Source: a virus
Length of the DNA stretch: 25,694 nt
Virus record (IMG/VR): IMGVR_UViG_3300035187_002158
Span: 1 to 25,694 of that record
Reading direction: 5' to 3' (one strand)
Part shown: positions 2,986 to 15,908 of the stretch, one piece after another
Numbering within the stretch: position 1 is the first letter of the stretch
Layout of the letters: every line of letters starts with the position of its first letter
Position numbers and translations under genes: made by a program
The notes under the pieces: model-generated
Seen by the model: the letters and a program-made list of their open reading frames with translations, nothing else
What the model was told of the DNA's origin: nothing
The model's database searches: none

Positions 2986-3285
2986 CTACGGGACGAGGTT
3001 GATCGTCGTCGACCGCAGGACGGCCTCCTCGACCGGAATCTCATCCTCGTAGAGGACGATCGTCAGGTCGGCGTCGGGACCGTAGATCGCGAGAATCGTC
3101 TGTTTGAACTCGTAGAGGCGATCGAGGCACTTCTTGCACATCTCCTTGGGGTAGGTCGCCCGGAGGAACGTGTGGTCCTGGTGCAGGTGATCGACCCAGA
3201 TCTGGGCGGGCATGTGCTCGCGGTCATGCCAGACGATCTTGGCGACCTCGACCAGCTCGTCGGCGGTGATCGTCAGCATGGGCAT
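2986..3285 (-). CDS. Hypothetical protein of replication region
   Basis: A 99-residue acidic protein beginning MPMLTITADELVEVAK, with a CKKC pair (about residues 50-53) and a run of His residues (WVDHLHQDHTF). The CxxC plus histidines could bind a metal, but no second Cys pair is present, so a zinc finger is not supported. It is encoded between the replication protein and rusA with about 45-base gaps on each side. A short hairpin (GGGCA-TCA-TGCCC) overlaps its start codon. I do not recognise the family. Confidence 0.65.
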   Translation of the reverse strand: MPMLTITADELVEVAKIVWHDREHMPAQIWVDHLHQDHTFLRATYPKEMCKKCLDRLYEFKQTILAIYGPDADLTIVLYEDEIPVEEAVLRSTTINLVP

Positions 3286-3328: not shown

Positions 3329-4198
3329 CTACGCCACGCCCTCCCGAAACTTCGCAGCCATCGCCCGCTTCGTGGCCTCGAACCGGGCAGCGTCGTCGCC
3401 CGTCCAGGCCTGGGCCGGTGGACGATCGTCCGGTCCGCGAGGGCCGCTCGACGACCGCTCGCGCGGGTTGTCGAACTGGCCGCCCAGGACCTTGTCCACG
3501 AACCCCGGGGCCACGAGCTGCGGGAGCGTCACCGGATCCCGGAAGTACTTGCACCGCGGCAGGGCCTCGATCGCCGCCAGGGCCTTTTGGAACCAGCCGT
3601 CCTCCTCGAGCCGGTCGGCGACCTTGTCCGGTGGATCCGGCAGCCGCCAGGGCCGCCCCGTGCCGGCCGCCCAGGCCTTCCGCAGCGTGTCCCAGCCGGG
3701 CGGCCCGGCAGGGCCGCTGTCCCCGTCCCCCTGCGCAGCATCCCCGGGGGAAGAAGAAGAATTTCTATCTCCTCTATCTCTTCTCTCTAGGGCGCGCCGC
3801 GCCCCGCGTGGGGGCGCTACGCGCCCCCGCTGGGGGCGCTCAGCGCCCCGGGCCTTGTCGACCTGGTGCCGGACGGTGGCGAGAGCCCTTGATTTAGCGG
3901 CGTTTGCGAACCTGGCGTCCCATCCGGGGATCCCAACAGTCCCATTCTCCGCGTCGATCACGAGCCAGCCCACCGCCTCGACCTCCCGCCAGAAGTCCTC
4001 GTCGCCGCCGCAGAGCCGCGCCAGGAGCCGAATCGACATCCGGGCCGTCCCGTCGGAGCTGTTCAGGGCCGCCCAGCCCCAGAGCATCATCAGCCGGCCG
4101 ACGACCTGGTCCGGCTGGAGGCCGGTCCGGTCGACGAGCTCGAGGACCTCGGGCTTCTGGGGGAGGCAGACGTCGTAGGGGATCCATTCACCGGCCAT
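3329..4198 (-). CDS. Phage replication initiator-like protein
   Basis: A 289-residue protein in two parts. Residues about 1-110 (EWIPYDVCLPQKPEVLEL, VVGRLMMLWGWA..NSSDG, then EAVGWLVID) match the winged-helix N-terminal domain of lambda O/DnaD-like phage replication proteins as I know them. Residues about 165-240 (WDTLRKAWAAGTGRPW...WFQKALAAIEALPRCKYFRD...FVDKVLGGQFDNPRE) match the C-terminal part of such proteins, which contacts replicative helicase or loader. Between them lies an Arg/Pro/Ser-rich linker encoded by the hairpin array at 3790-3849. The start overlaps the preceding gene by 11 bases. The role is probably origin recognition and helicase recruitment. Confident on family type, less on exact mechanism. 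Confidence 0.75.
   Translation of the reverse strand: MAGEWIPYDVCLPQKPEVLELVDRTGLQPDQVVGRLMMLWGWAALNSSDGTARMSIRLLARLCGGDEDFWREVEAVGWLVIDAENGTVGIPGWDARFANAAKSRALATVRHQVDKARGAERPQRGRVAPPRGARRALERRDRGDRNSSSSPGDAAQGDGDSGPAGPPGWDTLRKAWAAGTGRPWRLPDPPDKVADRLEEDGWFQKALAAIEALPRCKYFRDPVTLPQLVAPGFVDKVLGGQFDNPRERSSSGPRGPDDRPPAQAWTGDDAARFEATKRAMAAKFREGVA
3751..3849. other. Candidate replication origin inside initiator gene
   Basis: Three perfect GC-rich inverted repeats (3790-3849) sit beside a roughly 40-base tract (3751-3790) that is AT-rich for this genome and strongly strand-asymmetric: purines at 3751-3761, then almost all pyrimidines to 3788. Both lie in the linker-coding part of the replication initiator-like gene. 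Lambda and related phages place their origin in the O gene in the same way: palindromic iterons, then an AT-rich asymmetric region, encoding the inter-domain linker. The call rests on this architecture; replication activity is inferred. Confidence 0.5.
3790..3849. repeat. Three phased GC-rich hairpin repeats
   Basis: Repeat 1 (3790-3804) is GGGCGC-GCC-GCGCCC. Repeat 2 (3810-3828) is GGGGGCGC-TAC-GCGCCCCC. Repeat 3 (3833-3849) is GGGGCGC-TCA-GCGCCCC. All share the GGGCGC-NNN-GCGCCC core with different 3-base loops. Their centres are at 3797, 3819 and 3841, exactly 22 bp apart, about two turns of B-DNA, so bound dimers would sit on one face. There is no T-run on either side, which argues against transcription terminators, and they are inside a coding frame. 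Confidence 0.85.
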
Positions 4199-6245: not shown

Positions 6246-6502
6246 CACACCGCTCCTTTTGCAGTGAGTCCCTCGCGGTCCGCATACGCTCGGACCGCCA
6301 TCCAGTGCCGCTCCTCGAAGCGGTAATGGCCGTACACCTTCGGCGGCAGGCCGACGGCCCGGACCGCCTTGCGAACGTCCCAGTCGCTGACGACGAGTCC
6401 AGCGGCCCGGCACCGCTCCAGGAGCTCGGCCCACCGCATCCAGTTCCGATCCGCCCGCGGCGGCTCGTGGCGGAGCTCGGTCCAGGTCCGATTCCAGAAC
6501 AT
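6245..6502 (-). CDS. Small hypothetical protein, possible HTH
   Basis: An 85-residue basic, Trp-rich protein. Residues about 25-55 (RWAELLERCRAAGLVVSDWDVRKAVRAVGLPP) could form a helix-turn-helix, followed by KVYGHYRFEERHWMAVRAYADREG, like small DNA-binding proteins that follow an HTH with a two-strand wing. It is locked between the Sak4-like ATPase and the ssDNA-binding-like protein by TGATG overlaps at both ends, so all three are co-translated. This suggests it belongs to the same recombination complex. Not assignable to a named family. Confidence 0.6.
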   Translation of the reverse strand: MFWNRTWTELRHEPPRADRNWMRWAELLERCRAAGLVVSDWDVRKAVRAVGLPPKVYGHYRFEERHWMAVRAYADREGLTAKGAV

Positions 6503-7419
6503 CAGGCCACCCCCTGGGGCTCGAGCTCGCGATGCTTGGAGTCGAGGGCCTGCCGGAGGTCGATCCGCTGGTCGTCGGTGATCTCGCCCGTCGAAAGCAG
6601 CTCGTCGATCCGGTCACCGATCTTGCCGAGCGTCCGGACGCTGCCGGCCTCGGCGATGTAGGCCCGGATCCGGTCCTCGAGCGGCAGCTCGGCGGGGGCC
6701 TGCTTCGGCACCGGGACCGGGACCGGAGCATTGGCCGGGGCCGGGACGCCGTCAGCCAGCCAGGCCGCGAGCTGCCGGCCGAAGTCCTCGCCCGGCTTCT
6801 CGATGAGCTTGTCCTGGAACTTGCCCGTCCGGTCCTTGATCACGTTCGCGATGTGCTCGGTCGAGATCTCGACGAGAAGGTCGAACTCGTACTCGACGCC
6901 CTTGCCCTGCTCGGGGGCCAGGCCGATCCGCTGCGGCGTCTTCTTGCCGTTGTTGTCGACGGTCGTCCACTCGGTCTTCGACCGCATGGTCGCGAGGACG
7001 TGCCCGGGGAACTGGAGGATCGCCTGGACGAGCTTCCGCTGGAGCGGCGTCCCCTCGCTCCAGGCCGACCAGGTGTTCCCCCGATACTTCGCCTTCGCCA
7101 GCTTCTCGACCTCCTCGAGCAGCGTTTGCCAGCCGTGCGACAGGCTGTCGATCACCAGGACCTCGTAGCCGGACTCGGCCGCCAGCCGGATCGCGTCGAC
7201 GTAGCCCTGGATCGACTGGTCCTCGAGCTCGAGGACGTCGAACCCGAACCGGTCCGAGTACTTCGACGCCGAGCCGCGCTCGGTGTCGATCACGGCGATC
7301 CGGCCGCCCAGCCCCGTCGCGATCCGGAGGCTCGTGTACGTCTTCCCGGACCCCGAGGGTCCGAACACCGCGGCCCGCAGCTTGGCGGCCGCCTTCGTTG
7401 CTTTCCTGAATCCGGTCAT
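6502..7419 (-). CDS. Sak4-like RecA-family recombination ATPase
   Basis: A 305-residue protein. Walker A is GPSGSGKT at about residues 20-27, followed by TSLRIATGLGGRIAVIDTERGSA. Walker B is EVLVIDSLSH at about 95-104. The RecA core continues to about 225 and is joined to a C-terminal region (ELPLEDRIRAYIAEAGS...DDQRIDLRQALDSKHREL) by a Pro/Val linker. This matches the phage AAA_24/Sak4 type of single-strand annealing/RecA-like ATPases. The ATG at 7419 overlaps the upstream stop as ATGA, so I reject a longer extension. It probably works with the DDIPF-tailed protein two genes downstream and with RusA. Confidence 0.85.
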   Translation of the reverse strand: MTGFRKATKAAAKLRAAVFGPSGSGKTYTSLRIATGLGGRIAVIDTERGSASKYSDRFGFDVLELEDQSIQGYVDAIRLAAESGYEVLVIDSLSHGWQTLLEEVEKLAKAKYRGNTWSAWSEGTPLQRKLVQAILQFPGHVLATMRSKTEWTTVDNNGKKTPQRIGLAPEQGKGVEYEFDLLVEISTEHIANVIKDRTGKFQDKLIEKPGEDFGRQLAAWLADGVPAPANAPVPVPVPKQAPAELPLEDRIRAYIAEAGSVRTLGKIGDRIDELLSTGEITDDQRIDLRQALDSKHRELEPQGVA

Positions 7420-7643
7420 CGCTCCTGGTCCTCCTTTGTGAAGACGCGGAGGCCCACTCCCTCGAGCCCCCGCGCGTGATCTCGTCCATGAGTCCACCGG
7501 CTCCGCCGGCATCCACCGCCGCGGCATCCGCCGCGGCGTCCGTCCTGAATCACTGCGATCCCGAACACGACGAGGCACCCCGTCGCGATGAACAGAATCA
7601 GCGAGGCCACGATCAGCCACGATCCGAGCGCGTAGTCGCTCAT
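7416..7643 (-). CDS. Small membrane protein
   Basis: A 75-residue protein with one clear transmembrane helix at about residues 7-32 (GSWLIVASLILFIATGCLVV...). A Gly/Cys/Arg-rich segment (GGCRGGGCRRSRW) and a charged tail follow. It overlaps both neighbours by ATGA. The positively charged part after the helix would stay in the cytoplasm. Early membrane peptides in phages are often exclusion or host-takeover factors, but nothing here proves that. Confidence 0.6.
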   Translation of the reverse strand: MSDYALGSWLIVASLILFIATGCLVVFGIAVIQDGRRGGCRGGGCRRSRWTHGRDHARGLEGVGLRVFTKEDQER

Positions 7644-8994: not shown

Positions 8995-9027
8995 CGCTGC
9001 CGTCGGCCATATGGTCGAACGGCAGCG
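8995..9027. repeat. Long imperfect inverted repeat beside attachment site
   Basis: Outer arms CGCTGCCGT (8995-9003) and ACGGCAGCG (9019-9027) are perfectly complementary, and the inner part CGGCCATATGGTCG is itself nearly palindromic. Together they make a 33-bp structure with one mismatch and one bulge. It starts three bases beyond the 3' end of the tRNA fragment. It may be the former terminator of the tRNA, or a binding site for integrase or excisionase. Confidence 0.6.
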
Positions 9028-9029
9028 AA

Positions 9030-9083
9030 TACACCCGGAAGGGCTCGAACCTTCAACCTTCGGTTCCGTAGACCGATGCTCTA
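9030..9083 (-). other. attP: Attachment site: 3' portion of tRNA-Arg(ACG)
   Basis: On the minus strand the sequence has a D-stem remnant GAGC, anticodon stem TCGGT/ACCGA around loop CTACGGA (anticodon ACG, Arg), a variable region, T-stem GAAGG/CCTTC with loop TTCGAGC, and the 3' acceptor strand CGGGTGT plus A at 9030. Upstream, no 5' acceptor strand or D-stem pairs properly, so this is not a working tRNA gene. It is the 3' end that tyrosine integrases carry to rebuild a host tRNA on insertion. It lies between excisionase-like and integrase genes, with phage genes on both sides. Confidence 0.75.
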
Positions 9084-9205
9084 CACAGGACCATCGGTTC
9101 CGGTTTTGCGGGGCGTTTGACGCTGTCGCGCCTGTAGGGACACTGGCGGACACCTTGCCGCAGAGGGGATCGGACACCCCAAGAGCGGGACGCCCGAGGT
9201 CCTCC

Positions 9206-10129
9206 ATGTTCCGCCGCGCCGGCCCGGCCACGCTGGGCGAATACGTCCGCCAGTCCTACTCGCTCTTGCGAGACGTCCGTCCCGGCTCGCTACGCCAACT
9301 CGTGATCTCGGCCGACCTGCTCGAGCGATGGGCCGGCGGGCCCGTCCGGCTGGACCAGCTCGACGAGCAGACGGTCTCGGCCTGGCTCCGCGATTACTCG
9401 GCCACCGTCCGGCCGGCCACCGTCCGGGCGAAGAAGGCCGCGATCCTGGCGCTCTGGCGGGCAGCCGCGGACGAGGGCCTGGCCGAGGACCCGGTCGCCC
9501 GGAGGGTCCGGCGTGTCCGGGTTCCCGAGCGAGTGGTCCAGGCCTGGACGAAGGAGGAGGTCGAGCGGCTCCTCGAGGCGGCCGCCACGCTGCCCCGGTG
9601 GCACCGCTGCGGGGTGCGGCGGTCGGCCTGGTGGGATCTGGCGATCCGCGTGGCGTGGGACACCGGCCTCCGCTGGGGCGATCTCGTCGCCCTGCGGGCC
9701 GACGTGCTGGGGCCCGACGGGACCGGCGTCGTCGTCCAGAGTAAGACGAGCCGGGCGATCACTGTAAGGCTGTCTGCGGGCACGCTAAAGGCCCTGCGGG
9801 CCAGCCTGGCGGCCTGCCCCCGGGATCTCGTCTGCCCCTGGCCGGCGTCCGGCGAGACCTTCCGGGCCCAGGTCGACCGGCTCGTCGCCCGGGCCGGCAT
9901 ACGGGCCGGGACCTGGAAGTGGATCCGCCGCGGGTCCGGGACGGACGTCGAGCTCCAAGCCGAGGGGGCCGGGCATCGCCACCTGGGGAACACGCCGGCC
10001 GTCTTCCGGGCCTTCTACGAAGACCCGGCGATCGTGGGCCGGCGGACGCCCATGCCCCGCGAGCTGCTCATCCAGGCCCTCTCGCGGGCGGATGGACGTC
10101 CAGACCCACCGGCCGCCACCGGCTCATAA
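9206..10129 (+). CDS. int: Tyrosine integrase
   Basis: A 307-residue phage integrase. The N-terminal core-binding domain is about residues 9-105 (TLGEYVRQSYSLLRD, then VSAWLRDYSATVRPATVRAKKAAI). The catalytic domain begins at WTKEEVERLLEA. It has the box I arginine in DTGLRWGDLVAL, a basic WKWIRRGSGTD segment, GAGHRHLGNT for the box II region, and the nucleophile tyrosine in VFRAFYEDPA. I start at ATG 9206, with GAGG six bases before it; the frame extends further upstream but would read through the tRNA fragment. It is on the strand opposite most genes. Its last 62 bases overlap the convergent GT2 gene. Confidence 0.9.
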   Translation: MFRRAGPATLGEYVRQSYSLLRDVRPGSLRQLVISADLLERWAGGPVRLDQLDEQTVSAWLRDYSATVRPATVRAKKAAILALWRAAADEGLAEDPVARRVRRVRVPERVVQAWTKEEVERLLEAAATLPRWHRCGVRRSAWWDLAIRVAWDTGLRWGDLVALRADVLGPDGTGVVVQSKTSRAITVRLSAGTLKALRASLAACPRDLVCPWPASGETFRAQVDRLVARAGIRAGTWKWIRRGSGTDVELQAEGAGHRHLGNTPAVFRAFYEDPAIVGRRTPMPRELLIQALSRADGRPDPPAATGS

Positions 10130-14664: not shown

Positions 14665-15908
14665 TCTGTTTCACCTCCGGCCTGCCAGACCTGCACAAGA
14701 CCCCCGAAGTCCATCGCACACTCGTCGGCACGAACTGGGCCGAATGAAAACGTCAAATCGCCGTCTGTATACTCACAACAGATTTGCAGCGTGCATGGAT
14801 TCGGATCGCAGTCCACGCCCTCCAGCCATGCACCGGAACAGTCCGCCTCGGTCGTCTCCGTGCAGTTGCCGTCCTGGCAGCAGGCTCCCGTCGGCGGTTG
14901 CGGGCACGGGTTCGGGTCGCACTCGACGCCCTCGCTCCACAGGCCGGAGCAGTCCGCCTCGATCGTCTGCGTGCAGTTGCCCTCGCCGTCGCAGCACGCA
15001 CCCTCGGGCGGCTGCGGGCACGGGTTCGGCTCGCACTCGCCGCCGGCCGTCCATGTGCCGGCGCACTGGGCTTCGGTCGTGTAGGTGCAATTCCCCGTTG
15101 CAGCATCGCAGCAGGTGCCGCCGCAGGTCACGTCCTCGCAAAGCGTGTCGACGCCTTGCCAGTCTCCAGGGCAGGCACCCTCGGCGACGTTGTCGGAACA
15201 GATGACGCCTTCGCCGCCTTCCTCGCAGCATGCGCCGCACTCGCAGGGGTCAATCGTGGCCGTACCAGATATGCCGCAATTATTTAGAAAAGGAATCCAT
15301 GCGTCCCTGACTGCTTGCTCGGATATGCCGCCTTCAGGCGCAGAAAAGTCTACAGTGCTCCAATTTGACGATTCTTCTATCGCAAAGGCTATTGTATCGC
15401 TCCCACAAGGCCCGAGCGTTGCAGTAGTGCTGCTATCTAGAAGAATTTCGTAGTCCGAGCCGGTAACTTGAAGACGAACAGTAAAAAAAATACTGCACAA
15501 CACGCAGCCGCACCTATCCGGGACATCAGCCGACCCAATTGACACTACGCAAAGGCTTGCAGTGCCGAAATCATTTTCAATCGGCCACAAGTTTTCTGGC
15601 AGGATTAGCGGAGACGGAGCAAGGCAAAAACCCGGGTTATCGCCTCTCGGATTTTCAAGCGTGACCGAATCAACGTCGTTTGTTTGCAGAGATAGTGACG
15701 TTAACTTTTCCCTGTGAATGTAGGTACAAACAATGTTTGTGTTTGCTGCAACTGCGCCGTCTATGTTATTGGTGTAGTGCGTGCACTTGCTGCACTCGTC
15801 CGTGCAGCAGCAGTCCGAGCACACCCCGAACAAAAACCCAACCGGGTACATGCCGGCCGCCAGGACGGCGATCATCTGCACGGCGAGGGCGAGCGGGTCG
15901 TCGATCAT
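14643..15908 (-). CDS. Cysteine-rich repeat surface protein
   Basis: A 421-residue protein. A hydrophobic helix at about 5-28 (PLALAVQMIAVLAAGMYPVG) could anchor it or act as an export signal. A Cys cluster follows (CSDCCCTDECSKC), then about 170 residues of beta-rich sequence. Four tandem Cys-rich repeats occupy 225-373, and the tail is short. The repeats are of the extracellular kind I know from planctomycete surface proteins; disulphides would form outside the cell or on the virion. ATGA overlap with the upstream gene ties it to the distal tail operon. The middle (about 15250-15780) has lower GC than its surroundings. It may be a tail-tip adhesin or host mimic. Confidence 0.7.
   Translation of the reverse strand: MIDDPLALAVQMIAVLAAGMYPVGFLFGVCSDCCCTDECSKCTHYTNNIDGAVAANTNIVCTYIHREKLTSLSLQTNDVDSVTLENPRGDNPGFCLAPSPLILPENLWPIENDFGTASLCVVSIGSADVPDRCGCVLCSIFFTVRLQVTGSDYEILLDSSTTATLGPCGSDTIAFAIEESSNWSTVDFSAPEGGISEQAVRDAWIPFLNNCGISGTATIDPCECGACCEEGGEGVICSDNVAEGACPGDWQGVDTLCEDVTCGGTCCDAATGNCTYTTEAQCAGTWTAGGECEPNPCPQPPEGACCDGEGNCTQTIEADCSGLWSEGVECDPNPCPQPPTGACCQDGNCTETTEADCSGAWLEGVDCDPNPCTLQICCEYTDGDLTFSFGPVRADECAMDFGGLVQVWQAGGETECPPTNP
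14790..15236 (-). repeat. Four tandem Cys-rich protein repeats
   Basis: Residues 225-373 of the encoded protein hold four copies of about 38 residues with consensus GACC...G.CT.T.EADC.G.W.EGV.C.PNPCPQPP. Copies 2 to 4 are the closest, and the first is divergent. DNA identity between copies is also visible (repeated gcgtgcagttgcc and gcacgggttcgg blocks), which points to recent duplication and possible copy-number change by recombination. Confidence 0.8.

Follow-up and report, generated by a model that had tools for sequence, protein, structure and literature searches.

Since an initiator protein and all of its sites have to change together, it is a standing question how a replicon can shift its origin specificity and still replicate. 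The locus considered here lies in a stretch of viral DNA of 25,694 nucleotides (positions 1 to 25,694 of the IMG/VR record IMGVR_UViG_3300035187_002158, hereafter the window). The family to which it belongs points to a solution, in which one short cassette holds the specificity helix next to its sites. From comparison of sequences, it is very probable that positions 3749-3849 are an origin nested in the initiator gene of a temperate phage. The protein would bind half-sites, melt an adjacent tract and recruit the replication machinery, its specificity depending on residues 107 and 111 and being carried by an exchangeable cassette.

The replication initiator gene occupies 3329..4198 on the minus strand and encodes 289 amino acids. 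The protein is matched by phrog_2509 (E=4e-22, spanning residues 1-149, the N-terminal domain) and phrog_9474 (E=1.5e-16). Codons 12-98 (3905..4165, minus strand) specify a predicted winged-helix DNA-binding domain, with an AlphaFold pLDDT mostly of 88-98. The basic C-terminal helix of the DNA-binding region follows at codons 101-118 (3845..3898, minus strand; pLDDT ~56-76) and is marked out by conservation, K102, R104 and R110 being near-invariant, and by the covariation described below. The C-terminal part, codons 165-289 (3332..3706, minus strand), is partly ordered in the model and is probably the replisome-recruiting domain. The sequence-only reading of this DNA had placed the array and its tract in the linker between two parts of the protein. 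The model agrees, in that the stretch encoded by array and tract falls below a pLDDT of 50 at residues 120-122 and 129-159, between the predicted winged-helix domain and the C-terminal part.

Among 107 initiators of the family the C-termini are modular: 17/107 carry a DnaT domain and 2/107 a Phg_2220_C domain, and the C-terminus of the window initiator matches neither. Some genes (L364, L376-L392, L230, L259 and their relatives) are only ~150 codons long, stop just after the array and purine tract, and lack the C-terminal domain. Searches of solved structures by sequence, with the window protein, its family profile and lambda O as queries, gave no match, and Foldseek of the model against the PDB returned nothing at E<=0.001. 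Eight viral structure models matched at E<=0.001, a replisome organizer and a primosomal protein among them. The remaining structural matches of the model are weak and point to RepA_N and DnaD N-terminal domains; the top ones (5kbj, 4pql and 4pt7; Z 6.2-6.4 over 83-84 residues) are tied with CRP-like entries.

The array consists of three perfect palindromes, to which no strand is assigned. In gene order, the first (3834-3848, centre 3841) reads GGGCGC-TCA-GCGCCC on the plus strand and is kept in relatives; the second (3812-3826, centre 3819) reads GGGCGC-TAC-GCGCCC; the third (3790-3804, centre 3797), which adjoins the tract and is degenerate in many relatives, reads GGGCGC-GCC-GCGCCC. A pattern search bore out what had been read by eye: GGGCGC-NNN-GCGCCC occurs three times in the 25.7-kb record, always in the array, with centres exactly 22 bp apart. 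Not one of 200 first-order Markov simulations with the dinucleotide make-up of the window contained even a single pair of same-arm palindromes 15-40 bp apart. The array corresponds to nt 351-409 of the initiator gene.

An AT-rich, strand-asymmetric tract at ~3749-3789, a candidate DNA unwinding element, flanks the array as had been claimed. Its purine strand is the coding strand of the initiator, on which it reads AGAGAGAAGAGATAGAGGAGATAGAAATTCTTCTTCTTCC. A purine asymmetry as strong as this is found in ~0.008% of 28-nt windows. Calculation of duplex stability over the whole record places the minimum in the tract, 3751-3790 being the least stable of all 40-bp windows, and the maximum in the palindrome array. 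The association holds across the family. When each gene was scanned in 20-nt windows, the one richest in purine came just after the last half-site in 193 of the 194 genes tested, and a 20-nt window of >=90% purine starts at most 25 nt from the last half-site in 178/194 genes, against ~10 expected at random places. A second AT-rich region of low stability, at 15267-15744 on the tail/structural side of the contig, holds the least stable 60-bp window of the record; no arrangement of purine tract and iterons was noticed there. The proposed check by GC skew was uninformative on origin location. The skew has no origin-like minimum at the array, its cumulative curve peaking near 3 kb and then falling, and in this window it is confounded by gene orientation.

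The 58 close relatives of the initiator in IMG/VR indicate what is conserved. The arms are constant and the three loop bases vary, as the sequence-only reading had it, and some relatives have four palindromes. The array of L153, L155 and L166 begins one base earlier and is translated in another reading frame into a different peptide, the frame being restored before the tract. Preservation of the array in another frame, with a changed peptide, argues that selection acts on the DNA rather than on the peptide. Other close relatives carry different arms at the same place (GTGCGC-N4-GCGCAC and ACGCGC-N3-GCGCGT). Distant members, from phages of Pseudomonas, Xanthomonas and Escherichia, have GTAACGC/GCGTTAC, often as direct repeats, and then AGAGAAGAGAAG.

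The family has more than 550 members in IMG/VR. The matches listed in profile scans comprise 265 distinct genes, 261 of which can be assigned to ten half-site dialects: GGGCGC, GTGCGC, ACGCGC, GTAACG, GTGACG, GTCACG, GTTACG, GTCCCG, GTCCG and GTACGC. These names were picked by inspection of the DNA and followed by automatic counts; the ACGCGC label of one gene (K107, Q111) and the status of three unlabelled genes are doubtful. Half-sites occur in both orientations at intervals of 9-13 bp that add up to 22 or 24 bp, roughly one half-site per helical turn, and a spacing of ~11-12 bp is what relatives keep. Judging from these sequences, the conserved property is a row of half-sites on one face of the helix followed by a purine tract, palindromy being one version of it.

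In five dialects a second set of half-sites of the gene's own dialect lies at nt 100-210, within the winged-helix codons (GTAACG, 71/76 genes; GTCACG, 24/26; GTTACG, 15/16; GTCCCG, 16/16; GTGACG, 23/26). Some other dialects likewise have GTGACG and GTCACG hexamers in this stretch, so the correspondence is not strictly exclusive. None of 69 genes of the window clade (GGGCGC, GTGCGC, ACGCGC) has its own hexamer at nt 100-210. Examples of the second set are L139, L219 and L243 (GTAACG), L402 and L431 (GTTACG) and L364 (GTCCCG); the local residues, such as NCYA, NCHA or NCPA, follow the dialect.

We propose that the N-terminal winged helix, together with the basic helix 101-118, would bind each half-site (5'-GGGGCGC-3', one per ~11 bp), half-sites paired head to head making up the 22-bp palindromic iterons. 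Several initiators could thereby line up on a single face of the GC-rich array; the strain this imposes would melt the purine/pyrimidine tract next to it, where the duplex is weakest in the genome fragment. The C-terminal part would then recruit the helicase-loading machinery, be it of the host or of the phage. Residues 107 and 111 may help to set which half-site is read, the helix and array acting as one exchangeable specificity cassette.

In the window, residue 107 is Ala (3878..3880, minus strand) and residue 111 is His (3866..3868, minus strand). Both positions track the dialect. All 39 genes of the GGGCGC dialect have A, S, T or G at 107, and all 39 have H111, which is found in none of the genes of other dialects. 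For the 65 closest full genes with an assigned dialect, the two residues separate three dialects without exception. For the 261 listed genes, 99.6% of the dialect entropy is explained by the two residues together, and a single combination of them is ambiguous. When comparison is restricted to proteins sharing under 50% identity over residues 1-97, the dialect is correctly predicted from the pair in 72/75 recurring cases; the nearest relative permitted under the same limit predicts it in 52/261. A tree built from residues 1-97 requires at least 36 changes of dialect. Lys111 goes with a GTC-type half-site in 11 (10-11 by pairing) of 11 independent supported tree contrasts, and His107 with GTG in 6-8 of 9, none being contrary in either case. 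The rules linking Val111 to GTAA and an acidic residue 107 to C at base 4 appear weaker: Val111 is concordant with GTAACG in only ~2/5 supported contrasts, and the acidic residue with base-4 C in 5-6 of 11, again with none contrary.

Certain pairs of genes indicate how dialects change. L322 and L341, which differ in dialect, are identical in residues 1-96 (~97% nucleotide identity there), fall to 42-63% identity in nt 300-420, which hold helix and array, return to ~93% in nt 480-720, and exceed 90% over most of the rest. L154 and L184 have the same pattern, less sharply. L259 and L405 also differ in dialect with residues 1-96/97 identical. Since the dialect differs despite this identity, its determinant should lie in or after the helix. 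Within the window clade, the N-terminal tree calls for at least 7 changes of dialect and the C-terminal tree for 14. The simplest reading of the sequences suggests that a block of ~130 bp, helix plus array, is exchanged as one specificity cassette.

Other explanations of the array have to be set against a nested origin. Tandem GC-rich palindromic units in a disordered linker resemble an insertion, and the array might be a mobile or spreading repeat with no role in replication. The array is found once in the record, however, and two palindromes 22 bp apart, sought as a bare DNA pattern, occur in 43 of 2.9 million IMG/VR contigs, all 43 of which contain the initiator gene. This confinement removes the idea of a wandering repeat. 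Moreover, distant relatives have different half-sites at the same place and the array co-varies with the protein, so that such a repeat is extremely improbable; the transposed GC-rich repeat, which the sequence-only reading had considered its main alternative, is ruled out by confinement to the initiator together with the dialects. It is scarcely more credible that the palindromes act as extruded DNA or RNA hairpins (a single-strand initiation or primase site, or a transcript pause) rather than as duplex sites. Both single strands of the array fold better than shuffles (z -2.75 and -3.28), and hairpins have been discussed at lambdoid iterons (PMC7466680). If hairpins were what mattered, pairing alone should be conserved, leaving the arms free to vary copy by copy, yet the arms are identical in all copies within a gene and follow the residues of the protein. 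In addition, the half-sites of many relatives are direct repeats (FFFR, FFRR), which cannot pair locally, at an unchanged spacing of 11-13 bp; direct repeats with a kept spacing favour duplex binding sites over hairpins as the general mechanism. The term hairpin used in the earlier reading is thus right as to dyad symmetry and perfect arms, and fails as to hairpin formation, which is not a conserved property. The units are most probably dyad-symmetric duplex sites, and their action as extruded hairpins is unlikely as a general mechanism. Initiators often autoregulate, and the array could be an operator of this kind, or a partition or incompatibility site, with replication starting elsewhere. 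It would be a binding array for the gene's own product either way, and the matched second set of half-sites in other dialects fits such a role. Against this, the array sits ~350 nt into the gene, well away from the gene start, and with hardly an exception a purine tract comes next, here the weakest duplex of the record; such a pairing is typical of origins rather than operators. An operator or partition site is accordingly given little credence.

If the array is an origin as proposed, there is the question of whether residues 107 and 111 read it. They may correlate with the dialect through linkage in one recombining block, with specificity set elsewhere in the DNA-binding domain. Codons 107 and 111 lie 0-45 nt (median 17) before the first half-site, a proximity that lets physical linkage contribute to the correlation, and the neighbouring positions 109 and 114 are also informative on dialect. 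Nevertheless, the dialects of L322/L341 and L259/L405 differ behind identical residues 1-96/97, the same 107/111 pairs recur in proteins less than 50% identical, and Lys111 goes with three different GTC-type dialects in differing helix backgrounds. Linkage as the whole explanation is therefore judged rather unlikely. We lean towards a recognition code, in which 107 and 111 read the variable bases of the half-site and exchange of the ~130-bp cassette creates new origin-compatibility groups in one step. Candidate pairs include Lys111/GTC, Val111/GTAA, Met111/GTTA, His107 plus Gln111/GTGA, His111/GGG, and Asp or Glu107 with C at base 4. Because the helix codons are just upstream of the array, specificity and origin would be exchanged together. 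Direct base contact by the two residues is our inference, the helix 101-118 being modelled with moderate confidence.

The earlier reading had compared this arrangement with lambda. The likeness is one of architecture: position in the gene (iterons at nt 349-433 of gene O and at nt 351-409 here), several inverted-repeat iterons of ~20 bp (spaced 20-24 bp in the lambda record), an AT-rich purine tract on the coding strand after the iterons, and location between N-terminal origin-binding and C-terminal recruiting parts. Iteron copy number is 4 in lambda and 6 in Stx phages (PMC7466680). Unlike those of lambda, the iterons here are perfect and GC-rich, their half-sites also occur as direct repeats in the family, and no P gene was recognised in the window. 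By sequence the protein, which had been called O-like, is not an O-family member; it falls outside the lambda-O and P22-O families. PF04492 (Phage_rep_O) matched none of 107 family members at E<=0.1, and no O-like PHROG was matched by the window protein at E<=1, whereas several are common to lambda O and P22 gp18. A scan with lambda O found near-identical copies only. The analogy supports the view that the locus works like lambda ori by architecture, not homology.

Nested origins are already known from lambda, P22, phage L and pSK41. The replication genes of P22 and L have different specificities, and gene 18 of phage L contains six imprecise repeats of an 11-bp sequence (PMC8022706). Repeats inside the initiator gene are thus shared with these phages, whereas P22 gp18 belongs to phrog_345 rather than phrog_2509, and no dialect code is described in PMC8022706. 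The rep of pSK41-type plasmids encodes a winged-helix N-terminal domain and has four central Rep boxes and a dispensable linker peptide (PMC5703833). These RepA_N proteins resemble the window initiator in its predicted winged-helix domain and in nested sites, and are its best, though weak, structural match. They differ in being plasmid-borne and without a sequence match (RepA_N is not among the Pfam families matched by the 107 members at E<=0.1), and the structural match is within the range of a common fold. In the RepA_N protein of PLE, a Vibrio satellite, the DNA-binding domain co-varies with the origin iterons, the C-terminus is conserved and modules are swapped (PMC8263062). There, two groups covary at the level of whole domains; here there are about ten dialects, two residues and a cassette of ~130 bp. 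Comparative prediction of amino acid-base pairs between initiator and iterons has a precedent in geminivirus Rep (Arguello-Astorga and Ruiz-Medrano 2001, as cited in PMC12548392), an unrelated rolling-circle initiator of plant viruses whose iterons lie outside the coding region. We found no description of an origin or code for the present initiator family in the open-access literature. Three things appear to be new: how many dialects there are, the signature of two residues, and an exchangeable cassette this short. The presumed binding sites of every initiator lie within its own gene, so that recognition between protein and DNA can be followed across many natural variants by reading sequence. 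The origins and compatibility groups of phages should be predictable in metagenomes, for Planctomycetota, Verrucomicrobiota and proteobacterial prophages.

As to partners, no helicase, loader or P-like gene was recognised beside the window initiator, and the next gene (2986-3285, 99 aa) has no Pfam match. We infer that host factors are the likely partners, as no P-like neighbour was recognised. Phage VW-6S has a homologue of lambda P (PF06992, E=2e-30) downstream of an initiator of the same family, and PAN70 has DnaC-like and DnaB genes after its own; both neighbourhoods support an O-like role. GTDB genomes scanned with the window protein gave no match. Scanning with a profile detected prophages whose initiators are 27-40% identical in Pseudomonas, Enterobacterales, Akkermansia and other Verrucomicrobia, and Planctomycetota. 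The window also contains a tyrosine integrase gene (PF00589, phrog_1) at 9011-10129 on the plus strand, so the phage is probably temperate. Neighbouring minus-strand genes point to recombination and replication: 6502-7620 encodes an AAA_24 protein that also has a Sak4-like match, a weaker one; 5796-6731 matches SSB weakly; and 2482-2940 encodes a RusA resolvase.
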